This document shows positions 14,006-23,055 of a DNA stretch of 33,636 nt, piece by piece. The DNA lies in contig JAAFHC010000012.1 in NCBI GenBank assembly GCA_010906935.1, positions 1 through 33,636 on the forward strand. The letters run 5' to 3'. The notes beneath the pieces were generated by a model, which saw only the letters and a program-made list of their open reading frames with translations, was not told the origin of the DNA and ran no database searches. The position numbers were made by a program, and so were the translations under genes. Positions within the stretch are counted from its first letter, which is position 1, and each line of letters starts with the position of its first letter. The DNA is from Gelidibacter sp. Its GTDB lineage: Bacteria; Bacteroidota; Bacteroidia; Flavobacteriales; Flavobacteriaceae.

Positions 14006-14020
14006 TGTGACTTTTGTCGC

Positions 14021-14050
14021 TTTGTAAATGAAAAATAAAAGATATATTTG
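14021..14050 (+). promoter_or_regulatory. Strong Bacteroidota promoter (-33 TTTG / -7 TAnnTTTG) for the metal locus
   Basis: TTTG at 14021-14024 and TATATTTG at 14043-14050 are separated by 18 nt, matching the -33/-7 consensus and spacing of the phylum's primary sigma factor. It ends 19 nt before the ATG of the small Cys/His protein, implying a leader of roughly 15 nt. This is the clearest promoter in the window and marks the start of the copper-type locus, independent of menA. Confidence 0.7.
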
Positions 14051-14069: not shown

Positions 14070-14453
14070 ATGAAAAATCAATTTTTCGGCATATTTTTTT
14101 ATCTGCTTTATTTGTTGGCTATGGTTCGTCCATTGGTTCCAATCATGGAGTATTATGCCAATTATGATTATATTGCCACTGTACTTTGTGAAAACAAGGA
14201 CAAACCTTATTTAGAATGCAATGGAAAGTGTTATTTGGAGAAGCAAATTAAAAAAGCAAATCATTCCGATCACGACCATAAATCTACCATTCCCCAAATT
14301 GATTTTGAGAAATATCCTGTTTCACCTTTAGATCAATTTTCCTATAATATTAAAAATTTCGAAGAAGTTTATACCCATAGATTTTTTGTTAATAAATACA
14401 CTTCACAAGATTTCTATCAGTCTTTATTGAAACCGCCTCAATTCGTTTCCTAA
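14070..14453 (+). CDS. Small membrane-anchored Cys/His protein, probably metal-related
   Basis: I cannot name this 127-aa protein. An N-terminal hydrophobic helix (residues 4-26) would anchor it in the inner membrane or act as an uncleaved signal. Three cysteines follow within 15 residues (C40, C50, C54 in VLCEN, LECNGKC), then a basic helix and a His/Asp cluster HSDHDH (65-70). This is a plausible metal site in the periplasm. The C-terminal half is aromatic-rich with no recognisable domain. The gene has its own strong promoter and lies directly before an OprC-like TonB-dependent receptor, so a copper-related role (sensing, chaperoning or reduction) is an inference from context. There is no lipobox and no thioredoxin CxxC. 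Confidence 0.75.
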   Translation: MKNQFFGIFFYLLYLLAMVRPLVPIMEYYANYDYIATVLCENKDKPYLECNGKCYLEKQIKKANHSDHDHKSTIPQIDFEKYPVSPLDQFSYNIKNFEEVYTHRFFVNKYTSQDFYQSLLKPPQFVS

Positions 14454-14636
14454 TTTTTTCAGTTACGCTTTTTATTTAATTTATCTCTTGGAATTATTGT
14501 CAAGTAAATCGACGATGAATACGTTTTGGTTTGAAACATTAAGTTTTGGAACAATAATGGTTTTTGGCGAATTCGACTATGTTTAAATTATTTAAGATCA
14601 AGTAATTAGTAAATTTTTGAAAAGCTAAAAATTTTC

Positions 14637-14664: not shown

Positions 14665-14750
14665 TGTTTGAGAAAATTCCGAACATATCATAAATATGGA
14701 TTCGGAAAATCACTGGGTTGAACAAAAAAATATCAAAACGAAATTATCAA

Positions 14751-17021
14751 ATGAAAAATATTATTATACCAATCATATTGGTCATGTTTAGCGTTGCAAC
14801 AGCTTATTCGCAATCTGTTTTAGTAAGCGGAAAAATTGTATCGGAAGAAACGAATAATCCCATAGAATATGCAACCATTAAATTACTTAAAAATAAATTA
14901 GTGACCATTTCCAATGCAAATGGTGAATTTTCTATTCAGGCTGAAAATGGCGATAAAGCAGAAATTTCACATATCAGTTTTAAAACCTTTGTTGTGGAAT
15001 TGCAAAATGAAATGTTGGTTAAAATGCAATCGGCTCAAATAGATTTAAGTGAAATTATTGTGGATGCCAATCCTTTAAGAGATATTTCTCAATCTATTAT
15101 TATCAATGATATCGAAAAAAAGGTCAGCCAGCCAAGAAGCGTTGGACATTTATTTAGAGACATTCAGGGATTTGCAATTGTAAAACGCGGCGCTTATGCT
15201 TCTGAACCTGTATTTCGTTCTTTTAAATATGAGCAGTTAAATGTTCAATATGATGGCGGAATGAAAATCCACAATGCTTGTCCGAGCCGAATGGATCCAA
15301 TTACAACGCACGTAATTCCTGAGGAAATAGAAAAAATTGAAATTGTAAAAGGACCTTTTACGGTTCGGTTCGGACAAAATTTTGGCGGAATTATTAATTT
15401 AGTGTCTAAAAATCCATCAAAAAATGAACTCGGTTTCCATGGAAGTGTTGAAGGCGGTTATGAAACCAATGGCCAAAATTTAGTAAATGGAGCATCATTG
15501 GTTTATGTTGCCAAGAAATTCGACATTCAGTTGAATGGTTCTTATCGTGATTTTGGAGATTATACCGACGGAAATGGAGATGAGGTGCAATCATCATTCA
15601 GAACAACAGATTATTCCATTAAAGTTGGTGTAAATCCAACCGATAATCAACGATTGCAATTCAGTTGGAGGCAATCTTTTGCAAGGGATATTGACCATGC
15701 CGGATTGCCAATGGATTCTCCTTACGACGACAGTTATTTGGCAGGTATAGACTATAAATTCAATAATATTTCTGAAAAAATAAGCGGTTTTACTTTTAAA
15801 GCTTTTTATTCGTATGTAGATCATTTAATGACCAATGAAAATCGCCCAAGCTTTATGGCGACCGATTCAAAATCGCCTGTTGAATCTTTTTCTTATGGCG
15901 GTAAAGCAGAAATGGTAATTAATACTTCCAACAATTCAAAATTGTTTGCCGGCGTTGATGCCAATTTATTGAACAGAAAAGGCGACAGAACACGAATTGT
16001 AAAAATGATGAACGGCAATGTTTTGCCAATACCTAAGACTTTTGTGGATAAAGTTTGGCAAGATGCCGATGTAAATGATATAGGTGTTTTTGCGGAAGAA
16101 AAAATAAAAATTACAGATTACACCACAATTACGGCTGGTGTTCGGGCCGATTTTATTTCAGTAAAACTTAATGATCCTGCACCTGATTTTGAAGCTTTGT
16201 ATGGTGGAAAAATTAAGGACGAGTCGGAAGTGAATATCGGCGGAAATGCTTCCGTAAAATTTCAAAAAAACGGATTTCAAACACAATTTGCTGTTGGAAG
16301 GGGAATTAGAACAGCATCAATGACCGAACGTTTTATCAATCATTTTAATGTTGGCGTCGATCCTTACGAATATATTGGAAATCCCAATTTAAAACCTGAA
16401 ATAAATAACCAGATTGAACTTTCAGTTTCAAAGAAATTTGAGTCTTTTGAAGTTGGCGCTTCGGTTTTTCATTCCTTTTTGGAAGACTATATTTATGGTG
16501 TGATAAATACCGATATTCCAAGAAAATTTATGCCAACAACGCCGCCAGTTTATGCAAAACAATTTGTCAATATTGATAAAGCTTCACAAACCGGATTTGA
16601 GTTTAATTTTAATGTTCACGCAACAGAAAAACTATCTTTTTCGTCTGAACTTTCTTATACACGTGCACAAAATGAAGATTTGGACGAGCCTTTGGCGCAA
16701 ATTCCTCCTTTAATGGCAAATTTAGGAGTGAAGTTTGAAGAAAATAAATTTTGGGTAGCGTTAAATTCAAGATTGGTGGCAAAACAAGATAGGGTCTCAG
16801 CTTCATTTATGGAAGAAGAAACCCCAGGTTTCGGCACCATGGATTTAAGAGCCGGAATAACTGCATTTACCAATTTTTCAATCGGATTTGCGGTTTTGAA
16901 TATTTTTGACAAGGCATATTATGAACATTTAAACTATTCTTATCAAAATTCAAATACATCAGCAGGCCATATTTATGAAACTGGCAGAAATTTTACTGCC
17001 TATCTCAAGTATAAGTTTTAA
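14751..17021 (+). CDS. TonB-dependent receptor of the OprC/NosA copper type
   Basis: This 756-aa outer-membrane receptor has a signal peptide (1-20, ending AYSQ), a carboxypeptidase-regulatory-like Ig domain (~22-100), a TonB plug (~110-220, with IEKIEIVKGPFTVRFGQNFG) and a 22-strand-type barrel ending in YLKYKF. The plug has CPSRM (C177, M181), a CxxxM motif. The barrel has M321 in AGLPMDS and HLM (H358, M360), an HxM motif. From my knowledge of P. aeruginosa OprC, its copper is bound by C143, M147, M286 and M325 with H323 in a CxxxM-HxM arrangement. Spacing here (M-to-M 140, then 39) is within one residue of OprC (139, 39). Copper import is therefore the best prediction. I use the ATG at 14751 because an in-frame TTG at 14718 would add 11 residues before a normal signal peptide. 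Confidence 0.88.
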   Translation: MKNIIIPIILVMFSVATAYSQSVLVSGKIVSEETNNPIEYATIKLLKNKLVTISNANGEFSIQAENGDKAEISHISFKTFVVELQNEMLVKMQSAQIDLSEIIVDANPLRDISQSIIINDIEKKVSQPRSVGHLFRDIQGFAIVKRGAYASEPVFRSFKYEQLNVQYDGGMKIHNACPSRMDPITTHVIPEEIEKIEIVKGPFTVRFGQNFGGIINLVSKNPSKNELGFHGSVEGGYETNGQNLVNGASLVYVAKKFDIQLNGSYRDFGDYTDGNGDEVQSSFRTTDYSIKVGVNPTDNQRLQFSWRQSFARDIDHAGLPMDSPYDDSYLAGIDYKFNNISEKISGFTFKAFYSYVDHLMTNENRPSFMATDSKSPVESFSYGGKAEMVINTSNNSKLFAGVDANLLNRKGDRTRIVKMMNGNVLPIPKTFVDKVWQDADVNDIGVFAEEKIKITDYTTITAGVRADFISVKLNDPAPDFEALYGGKIKDESEVNIGGNASVKFQKNGFQTQFAVGRGIRTASMTERFINHFNVGVDPYEYIGNPNLKPEINNQIELSVSKKFESFEVGASVFHSFLEDYIYGVINTDIPRKFMPTTPPVYAKQFVNIDKASQTGFEFNFNVHATEKLSFSSELSYTRAQNEDLDEPLAQIPPLMANLGVKFEENKFWVALNSRLVAKQDRVSASFMEEETPGFGTMDLRAGITAFTNFSIGFAVLNIFDKAYYEHLNYSYQNSNTSAGHIYETGRNFTAYLKYKF

Positions 17022-17050
17022 TTCATAAACTTTACTTATTTGTTTGTTTG

Positions 17051-17084
17051 AAACCACGGAAAATTAGTTTTTCGTGGTTTTTTT
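17051..17084 (+). terminator. Intrinsic terminator after the TonB receptor gene
   Basis: AAACCACG (17051-17058) pairs with CGTGGTTT (17073-17080). An inner AAAA/TTTT and a G-U pair extend the stem to 13 bp around a TTAG loop, and the right arm runs into a T-tract (17078-17084). It lies 30 bp after the receptor stop and closes the metal locus. Confidence 0.85.
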
Positions 17085-17134
17085 ATGGATTTATTTTATT
17101 AAATTGCAGGGTATCATCTAACACATTTCTCATT

Positions 17135-17815
17135 ATGAAAATCACCTATTTAGGCCACTCAAGTTTAAGTATCGAAACAAAAGACAAAACACTGCTAATT
17201 GATCCCTTTATTTCTGGAAATGAATTGGCCAAAAACATTGACATCAATAAATTACAGGCCGATTATATTTTAATCACACACGCACATCAGGATCATATTT
17301 TAGATGTTGAAACCATTGCAAAACGTACCGGAGCCACAGTTATTTCCAATTTTGAAATCGTTACTTATTTTGAGAGCAAAGGAATTAAAGGACATCCTAT
17401 GAATCACGGCGGAAAATGGACATTCGATTTTGGAACAGTGCATTATACAAATGCCATTCATTCCAGTTCTTTTCCCGACGGAAGTTATGGCGGACAACCG
17501 GGAGGTTTTGTTATAGAAACAAGCCATCACCGGATTTATATTTCCGGAGATACCGCTTTAACTTACGATATGAAATTAATTCCTCAAGTAATAGGCGAAC
17601 TCGATTTGGCGATTTTGCCGATAGGCGACAATTTCACGTTGGGCGTGGATGAAGCTATTATTGCGACTAAATTTTTGGGATGCAATAAAGTTTTGGGCGT
17701 TCATTTTGATACTTTTGGCTTTATAAAAATAAATCATAAAAAAGCTTTTGAAAAGTTTGCCAAAGCAAAAAAGGAGTTGGTTCTGCTAGATATTGGCACC
17801 AGTCTCAAATTATAG
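17135..17815 (+). CDS. UPF0173 metal-dependent hydrolase (metallo-beta-lactamase fold)
   Basis: This 226-aa cytoplasmic protein belongs to the UPF0173 (YtkL-like) branch of the metallo-beta-lactamase fold. It begins MKITYLGHSSLSIE, contains LLIDPFISGN (20-29) and the zinc motif THAHQDH (48-54: H49, H51, D53, H54), then MNHGG, GGQPGGFVIE, YISGDTALTYDM with a further metal Asp, and GVHFDTFGFI near the C-terminus. The family is thought to hydrolyse an unknown substrate. An in-frame ATG at 17048 would add 29 residues, but that stretch overlaps the intrinsic terminator at 17051-17084, so I take 17135 as the start. Its convergent neighbour on the right ends 17 bp away. Confidence 0.92.
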   Translation: MKITYLGHSSLSIETKDKTLLIDPFISGNELAKNIDINKLQADYILITHAHQDHILDVETIAKRTGATVISNFEIVTYFESKGIKGHPMNHGGKWTFDFGTVHYTNAIHSSSFPDGSYGGQPGGFVIETSHHRIYISGDTALTYDMKLIPQVIGELDLAILPIGDNFTLGVDEAIIATKFLGCNKVLGVHFDTFGFIKINHKKAFEKFAKAKKELVLLDIGTSLKL

Positions 17816-17832
17816 AAAAACAAGTTGTAGTG

Positions 17833-18753
17833 TTAATTTTGTTTTAGATCAGCACTTTTTTGTTGGTTCATAAGCCATTCTTTTCTTAAATCTTCAGAAA
17901 GCAAGCCTGAACCGTCGTGTTTCCATCCCGGCGGTTTAATGAAATAGCCAAGTTTGTTTACAAAAGAAGTTTTTGCCGAAAAGGCATCTTTAAAAACGTC
18001 AATCCACTCGTTAAAAGCAATTTTTATGGGATTGTAAGTGTTTATGTTTGAATGCAATCCGTAAATCACTTTTTCTTCCTTTAATTCAGGTTGAAAAGTG
18101 CCGAAAAATCTATCCCAAATAATTAAAATTCCCGCATAATTTCTGTCCAAATACAGCGGATTTGATCCATGATGCACTCGGTGATGTGAAGGCGTGTTGA
18201 AAACGGCTTCAAACCAACGGGGCATTTTGTCAATTAATTCGGTATGAATCCAATATTGGTAAATTAAACTCACAGCCATTTGCGTTAAAATCATCAAGGG
18301 ATGAAAACCAAAAAATGGTAAGGCCAAATAAAAGACAAAACTAAAAAATCCGCCGGTCCAGGTTTGACGCAAAGCGGTGCTTAAATTGTATTTTTGAGAG
18401 GAATGATGGATGATATGCGATGCCCAAAAAAACCGACTTTCGTGTCCAATTCTGTGAAACCAATAATAGCAAAAATCATCGGCAAACATTATCAAAAACC
18501 AAGCCCACCAAGTAAACGGAATGGTTGTCATTCTAAAATTTTCGTATAAAAAAGTAATCACAAAAACCACGATTAATTTGCTTAACAAATTAACCAAAAC
18601 ATTGCCAACGCCCATGGATAAAGATGCAAATGTGTCTTTAATGTTATAGCCTTCAGGATTTTTTTTGAAAATAGCAATGCCTTCAATAATAACCGTTACG
18701 ATAAAAAAAGGAATCGCATAATAAATCAAATTTGGTATTTCAGGGAGATCCAT
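17833..18753 (-). CDS. Sterol desaturase / fatty acid hydroxylase family membrane protein
   Basis: This 306-aa integral membrane diiron enzyme has four or five hydrophobic helices and the family's histidine clusters: HRIGH (H100, H104), SHIIHH (H113, H116, H117) and HHRVHH (H190, H191, H194, H195). These bind two irons for O2-dependent hydroxylation or desaturation of a lipid. Bacterial relatives act on fatty acyl chains, carotenoids or aminolipids; nothing nearby narrows the substrate. It is divergent from menC (75-bp gap) and ends 17 bp from the convergent UPF0173 gene, so it looks monocistronic. The start MDLPEIPNLIYYAIPF places a helix immediately, typical of the family. Confidence 0.88.
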   Translation of the reverse strand: MDLPEIPNLIYYAIPFFIVTVIIEGIAIFKKNPEGYNIKDTFASLSMGVGNVLVNLLSKLIVVFVITFLYENFRMTTIPFTWWAWFLIMFADDFCYYWFHRIGHESRFFWASHIIHHSSQKYNLSTALRQTWTGGFFSFVFYLALPFFGFHPLMILTQMAVSLIYQYWIHTELIDKMPRWFEAVFNTPSHHRVHHGSNPLYLDRNYAGILIIWDRFFGTFQPELKEEKVIYGLHSNINTYNPIKIAFNEWIDVFKDAFSAKTSFVNKLGYFIKPPGWKHDGSGLLSEDLRKEWLMNQQKSADLKQN

Positions 18754-18828
18754 AAATCAGTTTTAATTTCTTTTGCCAATATAAAATAAATTTTCAAATA
18801 GTTGTATCTTTCGCATTTAATAAAATGA

Positions 18829-19869
18829 ATGAAGGCGTTTTTTCAAAAATATATTTTAAATTTTAAGCAGGCAAGCGGCACCTCCAGAGGTGTTTTACGT
18901 ACCAAGGAAACCTATTTTTTAAAAGTGGTTGATGGTGATATAGTTGGTTATGGTGAATGCGCTGTTTTTAAAGGATTAAGTGTCGATGACACACCTGATT
19001 ATGAAAGAAAATTAGCCTGGCTTTGCGAAAATATTAATAAAAATATTGCTGAATTATTAGAGGAACTCATAGAATTTCCTTCCATTCAGTTCGGATTAGA
19101 GCAGGCGCTTTTGTCGTTAAAAAGTGAAAATCCTTTTGAATTATTTCCTTCAAAATTTACCAAATCTGAAGATGGTATAAAAATCAACGGGTTGATTTGG
19201 ATGGGAAGTGAAGCTTTTATGAAACAACAAATTTCAGAAAAAATTAAAGCTGGTTTTTCAACCCTTAAATTGAAAATTGGCGCCATCGATTTTGAAACAG
19301 AAATTTCTTTGCTGAAAAGCATCAGAAATGAATTTTCTTCCGAAGAAATTGAACTGAGAGTTGATGCCAACGGCGGATTTCTTTCATCAGAAGCCTTAGA
19401 AAAATTAAAAAGATTGTCCGATTTGAAAATTCATTCCATTGAACAGCCAATAAAACAGGGTCAAATTCATGAAATGGCAGAATTATGCTCAAAAACACCT
19501 GTTCCAATTGCGCTTGATGAAGAATTAATAGGCATTTTTAATGTAACAGATAAGCAGAAAATGCTACAAACTATAAAGCCGCAATACATTATTCTAAAAC
19601 CCAGTTTGGTGGGCGGATTTAAAGGAAGTGCTGAATGGATTGATCTTGCTTCAACACAACATATTGGTTGGTGGATTACCTCGGCGCTGGAAAGCAATAT
19701 TGGTCTAAACGCCATTGCACAATGGACTTACACCTTAAAAAACAGTATGCCGCAAGGCTTGGGAACCGGAAGTTTATTTGCCAATAATGTTGAAAGTCCG
19801 CTAGAGGTAAAAGGGGAACAGTTGCATTACAACAAAAATAAAAAATGGGATTTTAATTTAGAAATATGA
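18829..19869 (+). CDS. menC: o-Succinylbenzoate synthase
   Basis: This enolase-superfamily enzyme dehydrates SHCHC to o-succinylbenzoate in menaquinone synthesis. At 346 aa it shows the barrel-end catalytic residues in order: KLKIG (K147, K149), RVDANGG (D179), SIEQPI (E205), ALDEELIG (D230) and ILKPSLVGG (K257). The KxK, the three acidic metal ligands and the distal Lys are all intact. Assignment to MenC rather than a dipeptide epimerase rests on the GECAVF and LVGGF segments and on menE two genes later in the same operon. It overlaps the CPBP gene by 4 bp (ATGA). Confidence 0.92.
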   Translation: MKAFFQKYILNFKQASGTSRGVLRTKETYFLKVVDGDIVGYGECAVFKGLSVDDTPDYERKLAWLCENINKNIAELLEELIEFPSIQFGLEQALLSLKSENPFELFPSKFTKSEDGIKINGLIWMGSEAFMKQQISEKIKAGFSTLKLKIGAIDFETEISLLKSIRNEFSSEEIELRVDANGGFLSSEALEKLKRLSDLKIHSIEQPIKQGQIHEMAELCSKTPVPIALDEELIGIFNVTDKQKMLQTIKPQYIILKPSLVGGFKGSAEWIDLASTQHIGWWITSALESNIGLNAIAQWTYTLKNSMPQGLGTGSLFANNVESPLEVKGEQLHYNKNKKWDFNLEI

Positions 19870-20825
19870 AATTTATACAACAAGCATACAAAGGAAATAA
19901 TGAGTGGACTGCTTACTTGGTCGCTTTAATGTTGTTGGTTTTTGGTTGGCAAATTGTGGGAATCATTCCTTTAACGGTAGTCGCTTACATTTATGCAGGT
20001 GATTTGGAAACGTTTATGTTGGCCGCAAACTCCAATTTCACAGATTTAGGAATCAATGCAAATTTGTATCTTTTATTGGTTATTGCTACTTTTTTATTCG
20101 GATTGTTGTCCTTGTTTTTAGGCATAAAATTTATTCATAAGAGAAAAATAGTGACTTTAATTACCAGTAGGGAAAAAGTAGATTGGGGACGATTTTTTTA
20201 CGCGTTTATTGTTTGGGGAATTGTGGGATGTTTTATGATCACTGTTGGTTATTTTGTGGCGCCTGAAGATTATGTTTGGAATTTTAAACCCATTCCGTTT
20301 TTTACATTATTGCTTATTTCGTTTTTGTTTTTGCCTATACAAACCAGCATGGAAGAATTATTGTTTCGAGGTTATTTAATGCAAGGGTTTGGAACCTGGT
20401 TTAAAAATTCTTTTGTGGCGCTTATTTTAACTTCTGTAATATTTGGTTTGTTGCACGGTTTAAATCCGGAAGTGGAGAAATTGGGCTGGCTTATTATGGT
20501 GTATTATATTGGAACGGGCTTGGTACTTGGGATTTTCACCTTGATGGATGAAGGAACAGAATTGGCTATGGGTTTTCATGCGGCAAATAATATTGTAGCG
20601 GCGGTCTTGGTGACCACAAACTGGACGGTTTTTCAAACAGATGCTTTGTTGGTTGATATTTCTAAACCTTCCATTGATTGGGAAATGTTTGTGCCGGTAT
20701 TTATATTGTATCCATTAATTTTGCTATTGTTTTCAAAAAAATACGGATGGGTCAACTGGAAAGAAAAATTATTTGGTCACGTTTTTAAACCAATTGAATT
20801 TAAGGAAGAGGAGTTTATAGCTTAA
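19866..20825 (+). CDS. CPBP family intramembrane metalloprotease
   Basis: This 319-aa polytopic protein carries the CPBP (Abi/CAAX protease-like) motifs in its second half: MEELLFRGYL (EExxxR), FGLLHGLNPE with the second-motif His, and a third motif near FHAANN. The family cleaves within membranes or processes prenylated or other membrane proteins; its bacterial substrates are mostly unknown. Seven or eight hydrophobic segments can be seen. It overlaps menC by 4 bp and lies 61 bp before menE, so it is embedded in a menaquinone operon. Whether that reflects function or only shared expression is unknown. Its stop codon is the first base triplet of a GC-rich palindromic repeat. Confidence 0.88.
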   Translation: MKFIQQAYKGNNEWTAYLVALMLLVFGWQIVGIIPLTVVAYIYAGDLETFMLAANSNFTDLGINANLYLLLVIATFLFGLLSLFLGIKFIHKRKIVTLITSREKVDWGRFFYAFIVWGIVGCFMITVGYFVAPEDYVWNFKPIPFFTLLLISFLFLPIQTSMEELLFRGYLMQGFGTWFKNSFVALILTSVIFGLLHGLNPEVEKLGWLIMVYYIGTGLVLGIFTLMDEGTELAMGFHAANNIVAAVLVTTNWTVFQTDALLVDISKPSIDWEMFVPVFILYPLILLLFSKKYGWVNWKEKLFGHVFKPIEFKEEEFIA

Positions 20826-20843
20826 AAGCCCCCGAAGGGGGAA
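20823..20843 (+). repeat. Stop-codon-overlapping palindromic repeat (short form) at the CPBP gene end
   Basis: The CPBP stop TAA is followed by AAG, CCCCC, GAA, GGGGG, AA. This is the same element as at 5381-5409 (lptD strand), in the same orientation and at the same position relative to the gene, minus an internal TAACCCCC. It forms a 5-bp CCCCC/GGGGG hairpin with a GAA loop. The next bases are also similar (CTAATATTG here, TTTATATTG there). Confidence 0.7.
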
Positions 20844-20862
20844 CTAATATTGATACGAAAAA

Positions 20863-20897
20863 ATGTTAAATGTTAAAAGTTAAAAGTTGAAAGTTGA
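20863..20897 (+). repeat. Tandem heptamer repeat spanning the menE start
   Basis: There are five consecutive 7-nt units: ATGTTAA, ATGTTAA, AAGTTAA, AAGTTGA, AAGTTGA. The fourth unit contains the TTG used as the menE start (20887). Similar heptameric tracts are seen before other genes here (for example AATACTC AATACTA before mgsA). Confidence 0.65.
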
Positions 20898-21963
20898 AAA
20901 TCCATTTCATAGTGCATTTAAATTGCAGGGAAAATCATTTAGTTCTAAGGAAGAACTGATTGATTTTTCCAAAGAAATTTCTGTTGAAGTTGGTGATTTT
21001 TTAACGGATTGGTTTGATGCGACATCTTTTGTTGAAGTAAAAACTTCCGGATCTACAGGAAATCCGAAAATTATTAAGCTTCAAAAAAAACATATGATTA
21101 ACAGCGCCAAAGCAACGGGTAACTATTTTAATTTGCCCGAAAATACAACAGCTTTGTTGTGTATGTCTATAAATTATATTGCCGGGAAAATGATGTTGGT
21201 AAGAGCGCTAACGTTGGGCTGGCATTTGGAAATTGAGGAACCGACTTCAAATCCGCTAAAAAATAGCGATAAAAACTACGATTTTTCGGCAATGGTTCCT
21301 ATGCAATTGCACAATTCTATAGATGATATTCATAAAATAAAAAAACTGATTGTTGGCGGCGGAACTGTTTCAAATGAATTGTTAGCTAAAATTCAAAAAG
21401 TTGAAACAGAAATATTTGCCACTTACGGAATGACGGAAACCATTACGCATATCGCGGTAAAAAAACTCAATAATTTAAAAAGCGTCATTGCGAGTGAAAA
21501 GAAGCAATCTAATTATACAATCTTGCCAAACATTAGAATTTCTATTGATCATAGAGGCTGTTTGGTTATTGATGCGCCTAAAGTTTCAGATGAAAAAGTA
21601 ATTACCAATGATTTGGTTGAACTCATTTCTCCAACAGAATTTAAATGGCTGGGAAGAGTTGATAACTTCATAAATTCAGGCGGCATAAAATTAATTCCAG
21701 AACAGATTGAAGAAAAATTAGCTAAAATTATTGAAAACAGGTTTTTTGTTGCAGGAAAAAAAGATGAAATTCTTGGTGAAAAATTGATTCTGATTTGTGA
21801 AGGAGTTACGAATGAAAATTTGCTTGTTAAAATTCAGCAGTTAAAATCACTTTCAACCTATGAGACCCCTAAGGAAATCTATTTTTTAGAAAAATTTATA
21901 GAAACGGAAACTAACAAAATTGACAGAACAAAAACGTTGATTTTGTGTAATATAGAAAAATAG
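20887..21963 (+). CDS. menE: o-Succinylbenzoate-CoA ligase (short AMP-binding form)
   Basis: This ANL-superfamily enzyme activates o-succinylbenzoate with ATP and CoA, the step after MenC. The ATP loop TSGSTGNPK is at 53-61. Later motifs include IFATYGMTETITHIA (the A5 region), a WLGRVDNFINSGGIKL hinge segment (with the usual GRxD) and a reduced C-terminal lid. At 358 aa it is about 100 residues shorter than the proteobacterial enzyme, mostly before the ATP loop, as is usual in Bacteroidota. The start is a TTG inside a heptamer repeat; there is no in-frame ATG before the core, and MKVENPFHSAFKLQG fits an N-terminus. It lies 61 bp downstream of the CPBP gene in the menC operon. Confidence 0.9.
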   Translation: MKVENPFHSAFKLQGKSFSSKEELIDFSKEISVEVGDFLTDWFDATSFVEVKTSGSTGNPKIIKLQKKHMINSAKATGNYFNLPENTTALLCMSINYIAGKMMLVRALTLGWHLEIEEPTSNPLKNSDKNYDFSAMVPMQLHNSIDDIHKIKKLIVGGGTVSNELLAKIQKVETEIFATYGMTETITHIAVKKLNNLKSVIASEKKQSNYTILPNIRISIDHRGCLVIDAPKVSDEKVITNDLVELISPTEFKWLGRVDNFINSGGIKLIPEQIEEKLAKIIENRFFVAGKKDEILGEKLILICEGVTNENLLVKIQQLKSLSTYETPKEIYFLEKFIETETNKIDRTKTLILCNIEK

Positions 21964-22000
21964 CTTTTTTGTCTTTTCTATTTTAACTTTCTAACAAAAT

Positions 22001-22336
22001 TTAGAAGTATCTGCTAAATATTTTAACTAAAACCAGCACTTTTATTCCAATCAATCCGCTATAAAACCAAATTGGTGTCTTAGCGGTTTCTTTCAATTCA
22101 TAATAAGCCAATTTAATGTCCATTGGCATTTTTGGCAATTCAAAAGTATGATTGCAATTTGTGCAAACGGAAGCGCCCAACTTTCCGCCTGATAAAAACG
22201 GAATATGAAAAAGGTGTTTGTAAACCCCAGTTACGGTAACTTTTGTCGTGTTTTTTGAAAGACAGTTCGGACAAGTAATTTCCTTGGGTGTTTCCTGTTT
22301 TAATTCCGAAGATTTTTTGCCAAATAGATACATCAT
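22001..22336 (-). CDS. Zinc-ribbon protein with C-terminal membrane helix
   Basis: I cannot assign a function to this 111-aa protein. It has a zinc ribbon made by CPNC (C22-C25) and CTNC (C58-C61), with a hydrophobic, glycine-containing insert (HIPFLSGGKLG) between. A C-terminal hydrophobic segment (~90-108, IWFYSGLIGIKVLVLVKIF) should anchor it in the membrane with the ribbon in the cytoplasm. The ATG overlaps the yebC stop by one base (TGATG), so translational coupling is likely. Zinc-ribbon tail-anchored proteins of this size are common in the phylum and poorly characterised. Confidence 0.8.
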   Translation of the reverse strand: MMYLFGKKSSELKQETPKEITCPNCLSKNTTKVTVTGVYKHLFHIPFLSGGKLGASVCTNCNHTFELPKMPMDIKLAYYELKETAKTPIWFYSGLIGIKVLVLVKIFSRYF

Positions 22337-23055
22337 CAATTCATTTCCATGGAGTGATAAACATTTTGAACATCATCATCATCTTCCAAACGTTCCAATA
22401 ATTTTTCAACATCAGCTTGTTCTTCTTCTGAAAGCTTGGTTGTGGTGGCAGGAATTCTTTCAAAACCTGAGGAAAGAATTTCTATATTATTTTCTTCTAA
22501 ATATTTTTGAATGGCTCCAAATTGTTCAAAAGGCGCGTAAATTAGAATTCCTTCTTCGTCTTCAAAAACTTCTTCCACATTAAAGTCGATGAGCTCCAAT
22601 TCAAATTCCTCCAAATCCATTTTAAGATCTTCAGCTTTAATTAGGAAATTACAAGTATGGTCAAACATAAAAACAACCGAACCTGAAGTTCCGAAGTTTC
22701 CATTGCATTTATTAAAAGCCGCTCTCACATTGGCAACGGTTCGGTTATTGTTGTCGGTTGCGGTTTCAATAACAACGGCAATTCCGTGTGGTGCGTAACC
22801 TTCAAACAGTACTTCTTTATAATTGGCAGTATCTTTATCGGTTGCTTTTTTAATGGCACGCTCAACATTTTCTTTAGGCATATTAGCTGCCTTGGCATTT
22901 TGAATTACCGCTCTTAAACGTGAATTGGCTTCCGGATTTGGCCCGCCTTCTTTTACCGCCATCACAATATCTTTACCAATTCTGGTAAAGGTTTTCGCCA
23001 TAGCCGACCAGCGTTTCATTTTTCTTCCTTTTCTAAATTCGAAGGCTCTTCCCAT
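22336..23055 (-). CDS. yebC: YebC/PmpR (TACO1) family protein
   Basis: This 239-aa protein matches the family closely: MGRAFEFRKGRKMKRWSAMAK at the N-terminus, the helical domain with IVMAVKEGGPNPEANSRLR, then NMPKENVERAIKKA, EGYAPHGIAVVIE and NGNFGTSGSVVFMF. YebC proteins were first described as DNA-binding regulators; more recent work links them and mitochondrial TACO1 to helping ribosomes through proline-rich stretches. It lies downstream of the acyl-CoA carboxylase gene (62 bp) and is coupled to the zinc-ribbon gene. Confidence 0.95.
   Translation of the reverse strand: MGRAFEFRKGRKMKRWSAMAKTFTRIGKDIVMAVKEGGPNPEANSRLRAVIQNAKAANMPKENVERAIKKATDKDTANYKEVLFEGYAPHGIAVVIETATDNNNRTVANVRAAFNKCNGNFGTSGSVVFMFDHTCNFLIKAEDLKMDLEEFELELIDFNVEEVFEDEEGILIYAPFEQFGAIQKYLEENNIEILSSGFERIPATTTKLSEEEQADVEKLLERLEDDDDVQNVYHSMEMN

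Follow-up and report, generated by a model that had tools for sequence, protein, structure and literature searches.

Copper uptake and its metering in Gram-negative bacteria are still thinly known. In OprC of Pseudomonas aeruginosa, the copper ligands are C143, M147, H323 and M325, and Met286 belongs to a methionine track, where it shares the Ag2 site with Met339 and Met343 (PMC8610252). The Pseudomonas oprC gene is reported to be lowered by copper and to be preceded by a cruR homologue, and CruR homologues also precede OprC-type (TIGR01778) receptors; in Bordetella pertussis, copper shuts off the CruR-linked receptor, and the bfrG operon falls with copper (PMC9426467). A small copper leader before an OprC-type receptor is already known, then, in another phylum. 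Here we analyze a 33,636-nucleotide (nt) stretch of DNA from Gelidibacter sp. (contig JAAFHC010000012.1 of assembly GCA_010906935.1; the whole stretch is called the window), in which the gene of an OprC-like receptor is preceded by a small open reading frame (ORF) with a cysteine motif and a C-terminal Pro-Pro. The best explanation of the locus, and one that we hold to be fairly probable, is a copper importer gated both at its promoter and by a nascent-chain copper-sensing leader.

For Bacteroidota, a TonB-dependent transporter of Bizionia argentinensis, G2EC70, was reported in 2024 to carry CxxxM-HxM at 21.8% identity to OprC (PMC11213822). A survey of CutF-like proteins, which used Pro-Pro as a search filter, gathered 5,334 proteins, 40% of them from Bacteroidota after normalizing (19% otherwise), with TonB genes as frequent neighbors; the available text of that survey does not single out the Bacteroidota members (PMC9973294). 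A survey of leaders ending in RAPP/RGPP found them before TonB-related genes throughout Gram-negative bacteria, and its available text places the copper-linked ones in many groups, not including Bacteroidota (PMC12992588). Among the literature matches listed (titles and abstract openings), we found no publication on the present leader with an OprC-like receptor in Bacteroidota; the published CutF-like list (PMC9973294) may contain the leader family.

The receptor and its predicted copper site

Sequence and fold comparisons of the receptor agreed on OprC. OprC 6fok was its top PDB match in phmmer (E 6e-39), the first non-OprC match being PhuR (5e-16), and the top NCBIfam family was TIGR01778, TonB-dependent copper receptor (259 bits, E 1e-76, a score below the equivalog cut-off), with TIGR01785 as the runner-up at 171 bits. 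An AlphaFold2 model built from a 30-sequence alignment (predicted local distance difference test score 83.9, predicted template modelling score 0.76) retrieved OprC chains at all of Foldseek ranks 1-28 (E 3.7e-45, template modelling scores 0.74/0.87), at 21-22% identity in the fold alignment; the next folds were the haem receptors PhuR and ChuA and the zinc receptor ZnuD.

The phmmer alignment with OprC 6fok laid CPSRM on CPNRM, AGLPMD on AGRGMD and DHLM on DHIM. A first-pass annotation of this DNA had named C177, M181, M321, H358 and M360 as a complete OprC-type copper site, and ORF translation and the alignment columns bear out its coordinates and residues. The methionine steps that it gave are likewise correct: 181 to 321 to 360 are steps of 140 and 39, against 139 and 39 for 147 to 286 to 325 in OprC. 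Its five-residue OprC site needs amending. C143, M147, H323 and M325 are indeed ligands; M286 is a track residue and not a ligand of the high-affinity site. By alignment, four of the five named residues correspond to ligands and the fifth, M321, to a track residue.

The family sample comprised 120 genomes, including the window's own, of which 44 had a receptor relative at E <= 1e-30 (45 matches, 30 given as DNA). We aligned 30 receptors: the window's, 17 close relatives (31-68% identity) and 12 at 24-27%, the 15 weakest matches being left out. Each of the five residues was invariant in 30/30 receptors, at identities down to 24%, and, apart from the start methionine, they were the only Cys, Met or His columns conserved in at least 27 of the 30. 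The annotation had judged a chance match unlikely and had counted lack of conservation in a family alignment as a refutation; the invariance among relatives speaks against chance. Convergence of the five residues was considered and rejected, as receptor and OprC are homologous over their length by both phmmer and Foldseek. The residues were also invariant in 75/75 sequences (74 named relatives plus the window), a set partly fetched and wholly parsed by a peptide pattern containing the plug Cys and Met, and a free test only for M321, H358 and M360. That pattern missed 6 of 80 named loci, the window-like CPSRM form among them.

The PDB, NCBIfam and fold ranks, together with the strict residue conservation, make a copper-import receptor of the OprC type the best reading, as first proposed, with copper transport as the predicted function. 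Judged by homology, the receptor on its own is a further member of the known OprC kind. The extra N-terminal immunoglobulin-like domain of the annotation did not survive: the domain is CarboxypepD_reg-like (PF13715), and it lies outside the match in several orthologues, where the match begins only at residue 91-98. We rejected it as a special feature of this receptor on both grounds.

The closest named receptors come from Lutibacter and other Flavobacteriaceae, with 94% identity to one Lutibacter metagenome-assembled genome, which makes Lutibacter the likely genus of the window. Directly after the receptor, at 17048-17815 of the window, lies a gene for a PRK00685-type metal-dependent hydrolase. 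By sequence, such a gene also follows the receptor in Lutibacter and a few near relatives; in the remaining named loci it was not the next listed ORF.

The leader family

The leader ORF, on which the first-pass annotation made no comment, lies directly 5' of the receptor gene, at a spacing of 297 nt. In an alignment of 24 leaders (A1), the invariant columns were C40, C50, G52, C54, P122 and P123, giving the cysteine pattern C-x9-C-x3-C; the stretch between the Cys motif and the Pro-Pro was variable, and the N-terminus appeared hydrophobic by eye. Start codons of the leaders were set by rule. The leader was present 5' of the receptor in 17/17 of the closest relatives (31-68% identity). Among the 12 distant receptors (24-27%), 6 had a leader, two of these with a gene of ~285 amino acids (aa) in between; the other 6 had a ~285 aa gene before the receptor and fetched DNA too short for a whole leader, and two of them showed a cut ORF with a Pro-rich tail. 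Of the 80 named loci, 74 were parsed, and 69 of these had the leader; 2 of the 5 misses were at contig ends.

The own genome (3.3 Mb in 296 contigs, with the window in contig C206) holds a single copy of the leader. A leader profile matched 94 of 296 genomes of the phylum, with 1-3 copies each, and Pro-Pro fell within the last 15 residues of 141/143 unique complete members and further in for the other two. Because that profile itself includes Pro-Pro, we ran a second search with one cut off behind the Cys motif (A3). Of 198 genomes of the class, 100 had a match; 69 places were read out of more (29 loci, the own excluded, plus 40 weaker ones), and 62/62 new complete members had Pro-Pro in the last 15 residues. 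The background in the loci of the first search was 40/989 for other small ORFs and 1/271 for ORFs of >200 aa. The residues preceding Pro-Pro were mostly FH (58/141) or FR (18/141).

Membership of the leader in DUF2946 was unsupported, with 0/24 leaders matching at E up to 0.1. Nor does the leader fall into any Pfam or NCBIfam family: each of the six families listed hit a single member and looks unrelated.

Genes behind the leaders included CxxxM receptors, MbnP (PF20243, E 1e-45), an MbnH-like dihaem protein, SCO1/SenC, other TonB-dependent receptors and uncharacterized proteins; eight next or next-but-one genes were run through the family libraries. A crude motif sort of 169 next genes gave 34 MbnP-like genes, 17 CxxxM receptors, 16 other receptors, 14 with an early CxxC-type motif, 3 SCO genes and 85 unsorted, beside 10 further leaders with no next ORF in range. 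By these matches, a copper theme is clear in the half of the downstream genes that could be named. We base no claim on a crude motif search for copper genes on either side of the named loci, which came back empty.

Some leaders precede other kinds of gene. At L045:3-1403, on the minus strand, the leader precedes a TonB-dependent receptor (Pfam Plug and barrel) with several Met in the plug and no CxxxM in the fetched part; leaders may mark further kinds of copper receptor. At L243:1971-2873, and in L252, L274 and L295, leaders stand before proteins of ~300 aa with C[DE]xCGC after a signal-like start; the L243 protein, the only one of the four run, had no Pfam or NCBIfam match. At L253:2161-3150 the leader precedes a gene for a DsrO-like 4Fe-4S protein, 295 nt away, for which a copper link is not evident.

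Promoter and mRNA pairing

We scanned 96 leader-receptor pairs, obtained from 110 loci with a looser receptor pattern, for TAnnTTTG, which we take to be the Bacteroidota -7 promoter element, and for the palindrome TGAY-N4-RTCA, presumably of the Crp/Fnr type. TAnnTTTG occurred within 90 nt 5' of the leader in 53/96 pairs (shuffles mean 7, max 16) and in the leader-receptor gap in 2/94 (shuffles mean 8.6, max 15). The palindrome occurred within 100 nt 5' of the leader in 52/94 (shuffles mean 0.6, max 3) and in the gap in 2/92. The shuffles in both tests keep base composition only. In 34 of the 43 loci with both elements, the palindrome starts exactly 35 nt before the box, and the window has the same register. 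With the box before the leader and rarely in the gap, the leader would be the first gene of an operon with the receptor. The box often abuts the rule-chosen leader start (36 matches begin 10-14 nt before it), for instance among L013-L024 and L178-L239. This position of the box against the start codon suggests leaderless mRNAs for these leaders.

The own genome contains 31 sites of box plus palindrome, compared with 1 for the reversed pattern. Genes behind these sites include ccoS (TIGR00847), with a site ~290 nt before ccoN (TIGR00780, 653 bits), and a P-type ATPase with an HMA domain (copper-ATPase-like); a Crp/Fnr-family gene adjoins the ATPase gene, its best NCBIfam match being Fnr at 86 bits, under the model cut-off. 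Ferredoxin oxidoreductase genes and an NADH dehydrogenase-like subunit, read by eye only, also follow such sites, and several sites had no recognizable gene behind them. The shared sites before ccoS/ccoN and the ATPase, with the adjoining Fnr-like gene, make it probable that leader and receptor are part of a low-oxygen regulon together with cbb3 oxidase.

In G000:C243, near 17784-22714, ccoN, ccoS, a copper-ATPase-like gene and an Fnr-like regulator with an N-terminal CxxC are clustered, and two Crp/Fnr-like sites in the cluster have the layout found upstream of the copper leader.

The mRNA just behind the Pro-Pro codons is complementary to the region of the next start. A single consensus structure failed for 20 loci, and the arms were therefore tested locus by locus against permuted partners. 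Own arms paired at -10.74 kcal/mol, against -6.94 kcal/mol for permuted arms (Z -15, 0/2000 permutations, 90 loci related by descent); after deduplication Z was -13.1 (71 loci), and controls gave -0.9, -2.2, -3.0, 0.1 and -2.0. A second set, of 169 leaders found, 17 before CxxxM receptors and the rest before other genes, gave Z -14.5 for 168 leaders, with controls at -3.0 and -2.1. Duplexes of at least 8 kcal/mol (58/91 and 103/169 in the two sets) begin a median of 8 or 6 nt past the first Pro base. By gap length, the signal was Z -14.4 at 25-99 nt (n=65).

In the window, the best duplex joins TTCGTTT (14442-14448) to AAACGAA (14736-14742), at own-pair rank 7 of 91, and the minimum-energy fold pairs 14443-14457 with 14740-14754, start codon included. 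The pairing test is positive across the family; for the window itself these calculations only suggest a helix. An inner hairpin with covarying pairs (GGTAG...CTACC type) lies between the arms in the gaps of L178-L192 and L213-L238.

Table 1. Features of the leader-receptor locus, in positions of the window.
Feature	Position	Strand	Evidence or remark
Crp/Fnr-like palindrome TGAC-TTTT-GTCG (TGACTTTTGTCG)	14008..14019	+	One base off TGAY-N4-RTCA; 35 nt 5' of the TAnnTTTG box
Bacteroidota-type -7 promoter box, TATATTTG	14043..14050	+	TAnnTTTG scan of relatives
Leader ORF, Cys/Pro-Pro family; proposed copper-sensing arrest leader	14070..14453	+	127 aa; ORF list, alignment, profile searches
Codons of C40...C50-x3-C54 (CENKDKPYLECNGKC), putative copper-binding motif	14187..14231	+	Cys columns invariant in 24/24
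Pro-Pro codons P122-P123, proposed stall site	14433..14438	+	4 residues before the stop; invariant in 24/24
Candidate 5' arm behind the Pro-Pro codons, taking in the leader stop	14442..14457	+	Can pair with the receptor start region; at this locus no more than suggestive
Candidate 3' arm, before and across the receptor ATG	14736..14754	+	Duplex and fold calculations
OprC-like TonB-dependent receptor	14751..17021	+	756 aa, ATG 14751 to stop 17021 (ORF translation); alternative in-frame TTG start at 14718, 33 nt 5' of the ATG; phmmer, NCBIfam, Pfam, AlphaFold2/Foldseek
CarboxypepD_reg-like N-terminal domain, residues 25-104	14823..15062	+	PF13715, E 4e-10
Plug domain, residues 110-213	15078..15389	+	PF07715
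CxxxM: C177, M181 (CPSRM), equivalent to OprC C143/M147	15279..15293	+	phmmer alignment, 30-receptor alignment
M321, matching OprC Met286, a residue of the methionine track and no primary ligand	15711..15713	+	Alignment, PMC8610252
HxM: H358, M360, equivalent to OprC H323/M325	15822..15830	+	phmmer alignment, 30-receptor and named-loci alignments

Mechanism, alternatives and known systems

The explanation of a doubly gated copper importer is based on homology, invariant residues, gene order, promoter position, co-conservation of the Cys and Pro-Pro motifs, and own-partner complementarity across the family; copper as the ligand, stalling, the direction of the response and the identity of the activator are inferred beyond that. 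The receptor would bind ionic copper at the CxxxM-HxM site between plug and barrel and import it, driven by TonB, as OprC does. A Crp/Fnr-like factor would act at the promoter 5' of the leader, jointly with microaerobic genes such as those of the copper enzyme cbb3 oxidase. Under copper scarcity, a ribosome translating the leader would pause at the C-terminal Pro-Pro and cover the mRNA just behind it, so that pairing with the receptor start is blocked and the receptor is made. Copper on the Cys motif of the nascent leader would relieve the pause, the helix would form and the receptor would be shut off; we favor this direction because of the importer role and the CruR precedent.

Extended beyond this locus, the same logic would give Bacteroidota a nascent-chain copper-sensor family of its own, with HPP/RPP ends and no profile match to DUF2946, heading copper operons (OprC-like receptors, MbnP/MbnH, SCO). 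A ribosome stalled at Pro-Pro would keep an mRNA helix off the next start, combining the logic of CruR with the mechanics of CutF/SecM and an Fnr-like switch shared with cbb3 oxidase. To this wider proposal we lean by a little.

A number of results weigh against these proposals. For the receptor, 259 bits do not reach the TIGR01778 equivalog cut-off of 472.45, and we have therefore filed it as OprC-like and not as an OprC equivalog. The methionine track of OprC is mostly absent (Met columns at >=95% are only 181, 321 and 360, so that only the Met286 equivalent is kept), and the only further genome sampled from this genus (G047) had no receptor match at E 1e-30. For the leader, L164, L229 and L241 lack one despite sufficient upstream DNA; L177 has a leader without Pro-Pro (68/69 named-locus leaders have it in the last 15 residues); and the RAPP arrest sequence is not that of these leaders, which mostly have FH or FR before Pro-Pro. 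At the promoter, TAnnTTTG over the whole window is at chance (54 found, 56 expected), and the window's palindrome has a mismatch to the consensus.

The pairing evidence has similar weak points. Some controls lie at Z -2 to -3 and are thus not nil, so composition or descent adds a little to the signal. Gaps of 100-500 nt gave only Z -3.5 (n=25), and in nine Lutibacter loci with gaps of 106-297 nt the own-pair test was flat (Z +0.5). A joint alignment of 20/21 loci with gaps of 60-70 nt yielded no consensus structure, a subgroup of 9 loci yielded the inner hairpin only, and in the one group with a consensus helix both-side changes were seen in only 2/10 pairs. The window's arms have two competing registers, with pair probabilities of 0.24-0.49 for TTCGTTT/AAACGAA, and, taken whole, its region is no more stably folded than shuffled sequence (z -0.68). 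Finally, we found no experiment on any member of the family.

Control of the CruR type, in which a stalled ribosome would protect the transcript from Rho-dependent termination in the gap and any helix would be secondary, seems unlikely to us. The order of leader and copper receptor and the C-terminal Pro-Pro are those of Bordetella CruR (PMC9426467), the window and its Lutibacter relatives have long gaps without a helix signal, and no intrinsic terminator was found between 13950 and 14800; however, family-wide pairing of the leader end with the downstream start would be superfluous for Rho control. In the Lutibacter loci themselves, another mechanism, such as Rho, may serve.

It is also rather improbable that the leader encodes a copper chaperone or storage protein which is anchored in the membrane and acts in trans once mature, the gene order being that of an ordinary operon. 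Its hydrophobic N-terminus and three invariant Cys would fit a copper-binding protein, as would MbnP, SCO and receptors among the neighbors. Yet Pro-Pro near the stop is fixed while the stretch leading to it from the Cys motif varies, and the mRNA just behind Pro-Pro can pair with the start that follows; a plain chaperone would not be expected to show either feature. The promoter box, found before the leader and hardly ever in the gap, points the same way.

An opposite sign, in which copper would prolong the pause and raise the downstream gene, has its model in CutF, which combines CxxxC with a proline-rich end and has a stem covering the next start (PMC9973294). We regard it as doubtful to a similar degree, since an importer gene should fall in excess copper, like the bfrG operon and oprC (PMC9426467). 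Another cargo (zinc, a copper chelate or a haem-like compound), with the five residues serving something else, is suggested by PhuR, ChuA and ZnuD as the next folds and TIGR01785 as the second family, but is very improbable given that the four OprC ligands are invariant and, with M321, form the sole conserved Cys/Met/His columns of the 30 receptors (start Met aside), and that the leader family is followed by several recognizable copper genes.

The leader family opens a way into copper regulation in Bacteroidota, where the available text of the RAPP/RGPP survey gives no copper-linked leaders (PMC12992588). Leader position alone may point to further copper receptors and proteins, and the stall-and-occlude model gives sharp predictions for flavobacteria. 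The Crp/Fnr-like site suggests a link, under low oxygen, between copper import and cbb3 oxidase, which depends on copper.

Among known systems, OprC of P. aeruginosa (with NosA; TIGR01778, PDB 6fok) shares with the window's receptor the fold, the CxxxM-HxM ligands, their spacing and the Met286 equivalent; the window's receptor differs in the CarboxypepD_reg domain in front, in its sub-cut-off TIGR01778 score and in lacking most of the methionine track. G2EC70 is, like the window's receptor, a Bacteroidota receptor with CxxxM-HxM, and the available text of that report gives no leader for it; the 'CutF' of the same report (G2ED03) is an NlpE-type protein and differs from the CutF leader (PMC11213822).

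By analogy, the layout of the leader is that of the translation-arrest leaders CruR, CutF and SecM. CruR of B. pertussis, a DUF2946 protein found with BfrG/CrtA, is a small leader with a Cys motif and a C-terminal Pro-Pro before a copper receptor; it has CXXC, RAPP and a Rho site, whereas the present leaders have no DUF2946 match, C-x9-C-x3-C, HPP/RPP and pairing with the next start (PMC9426467; PMC12914433). CutF of Rhodobacter capsulatus resembles the layout of our leaders in its CxxxC, proline-rich end and stem over the downstream start (PMC9973294). In SecM, MifM, ApdA/ApdP and the Bacteroidota NAP-stop/NSP-stop leaders, some of them thus from this phylum, arrest near the C-terminus controls the next gene; these export-linked leaders monitor secretion, whereas those described here are proposed to be copper sensors (PMC10987492). 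The leaders of the RAPP/RGPP survey are set apart by a terminal sequence that ours do not have (PMC12992588). To these systems the present analysis adds a distinct, non-DUF2946 leader closely tied to the OprC-like receptors of Flavobacteriaceae, a Pro-Pro test made with a profile blind to that motif, complementarity between the end of the leader and the start that follows, and a promoter of Crp/Fnr-like type.

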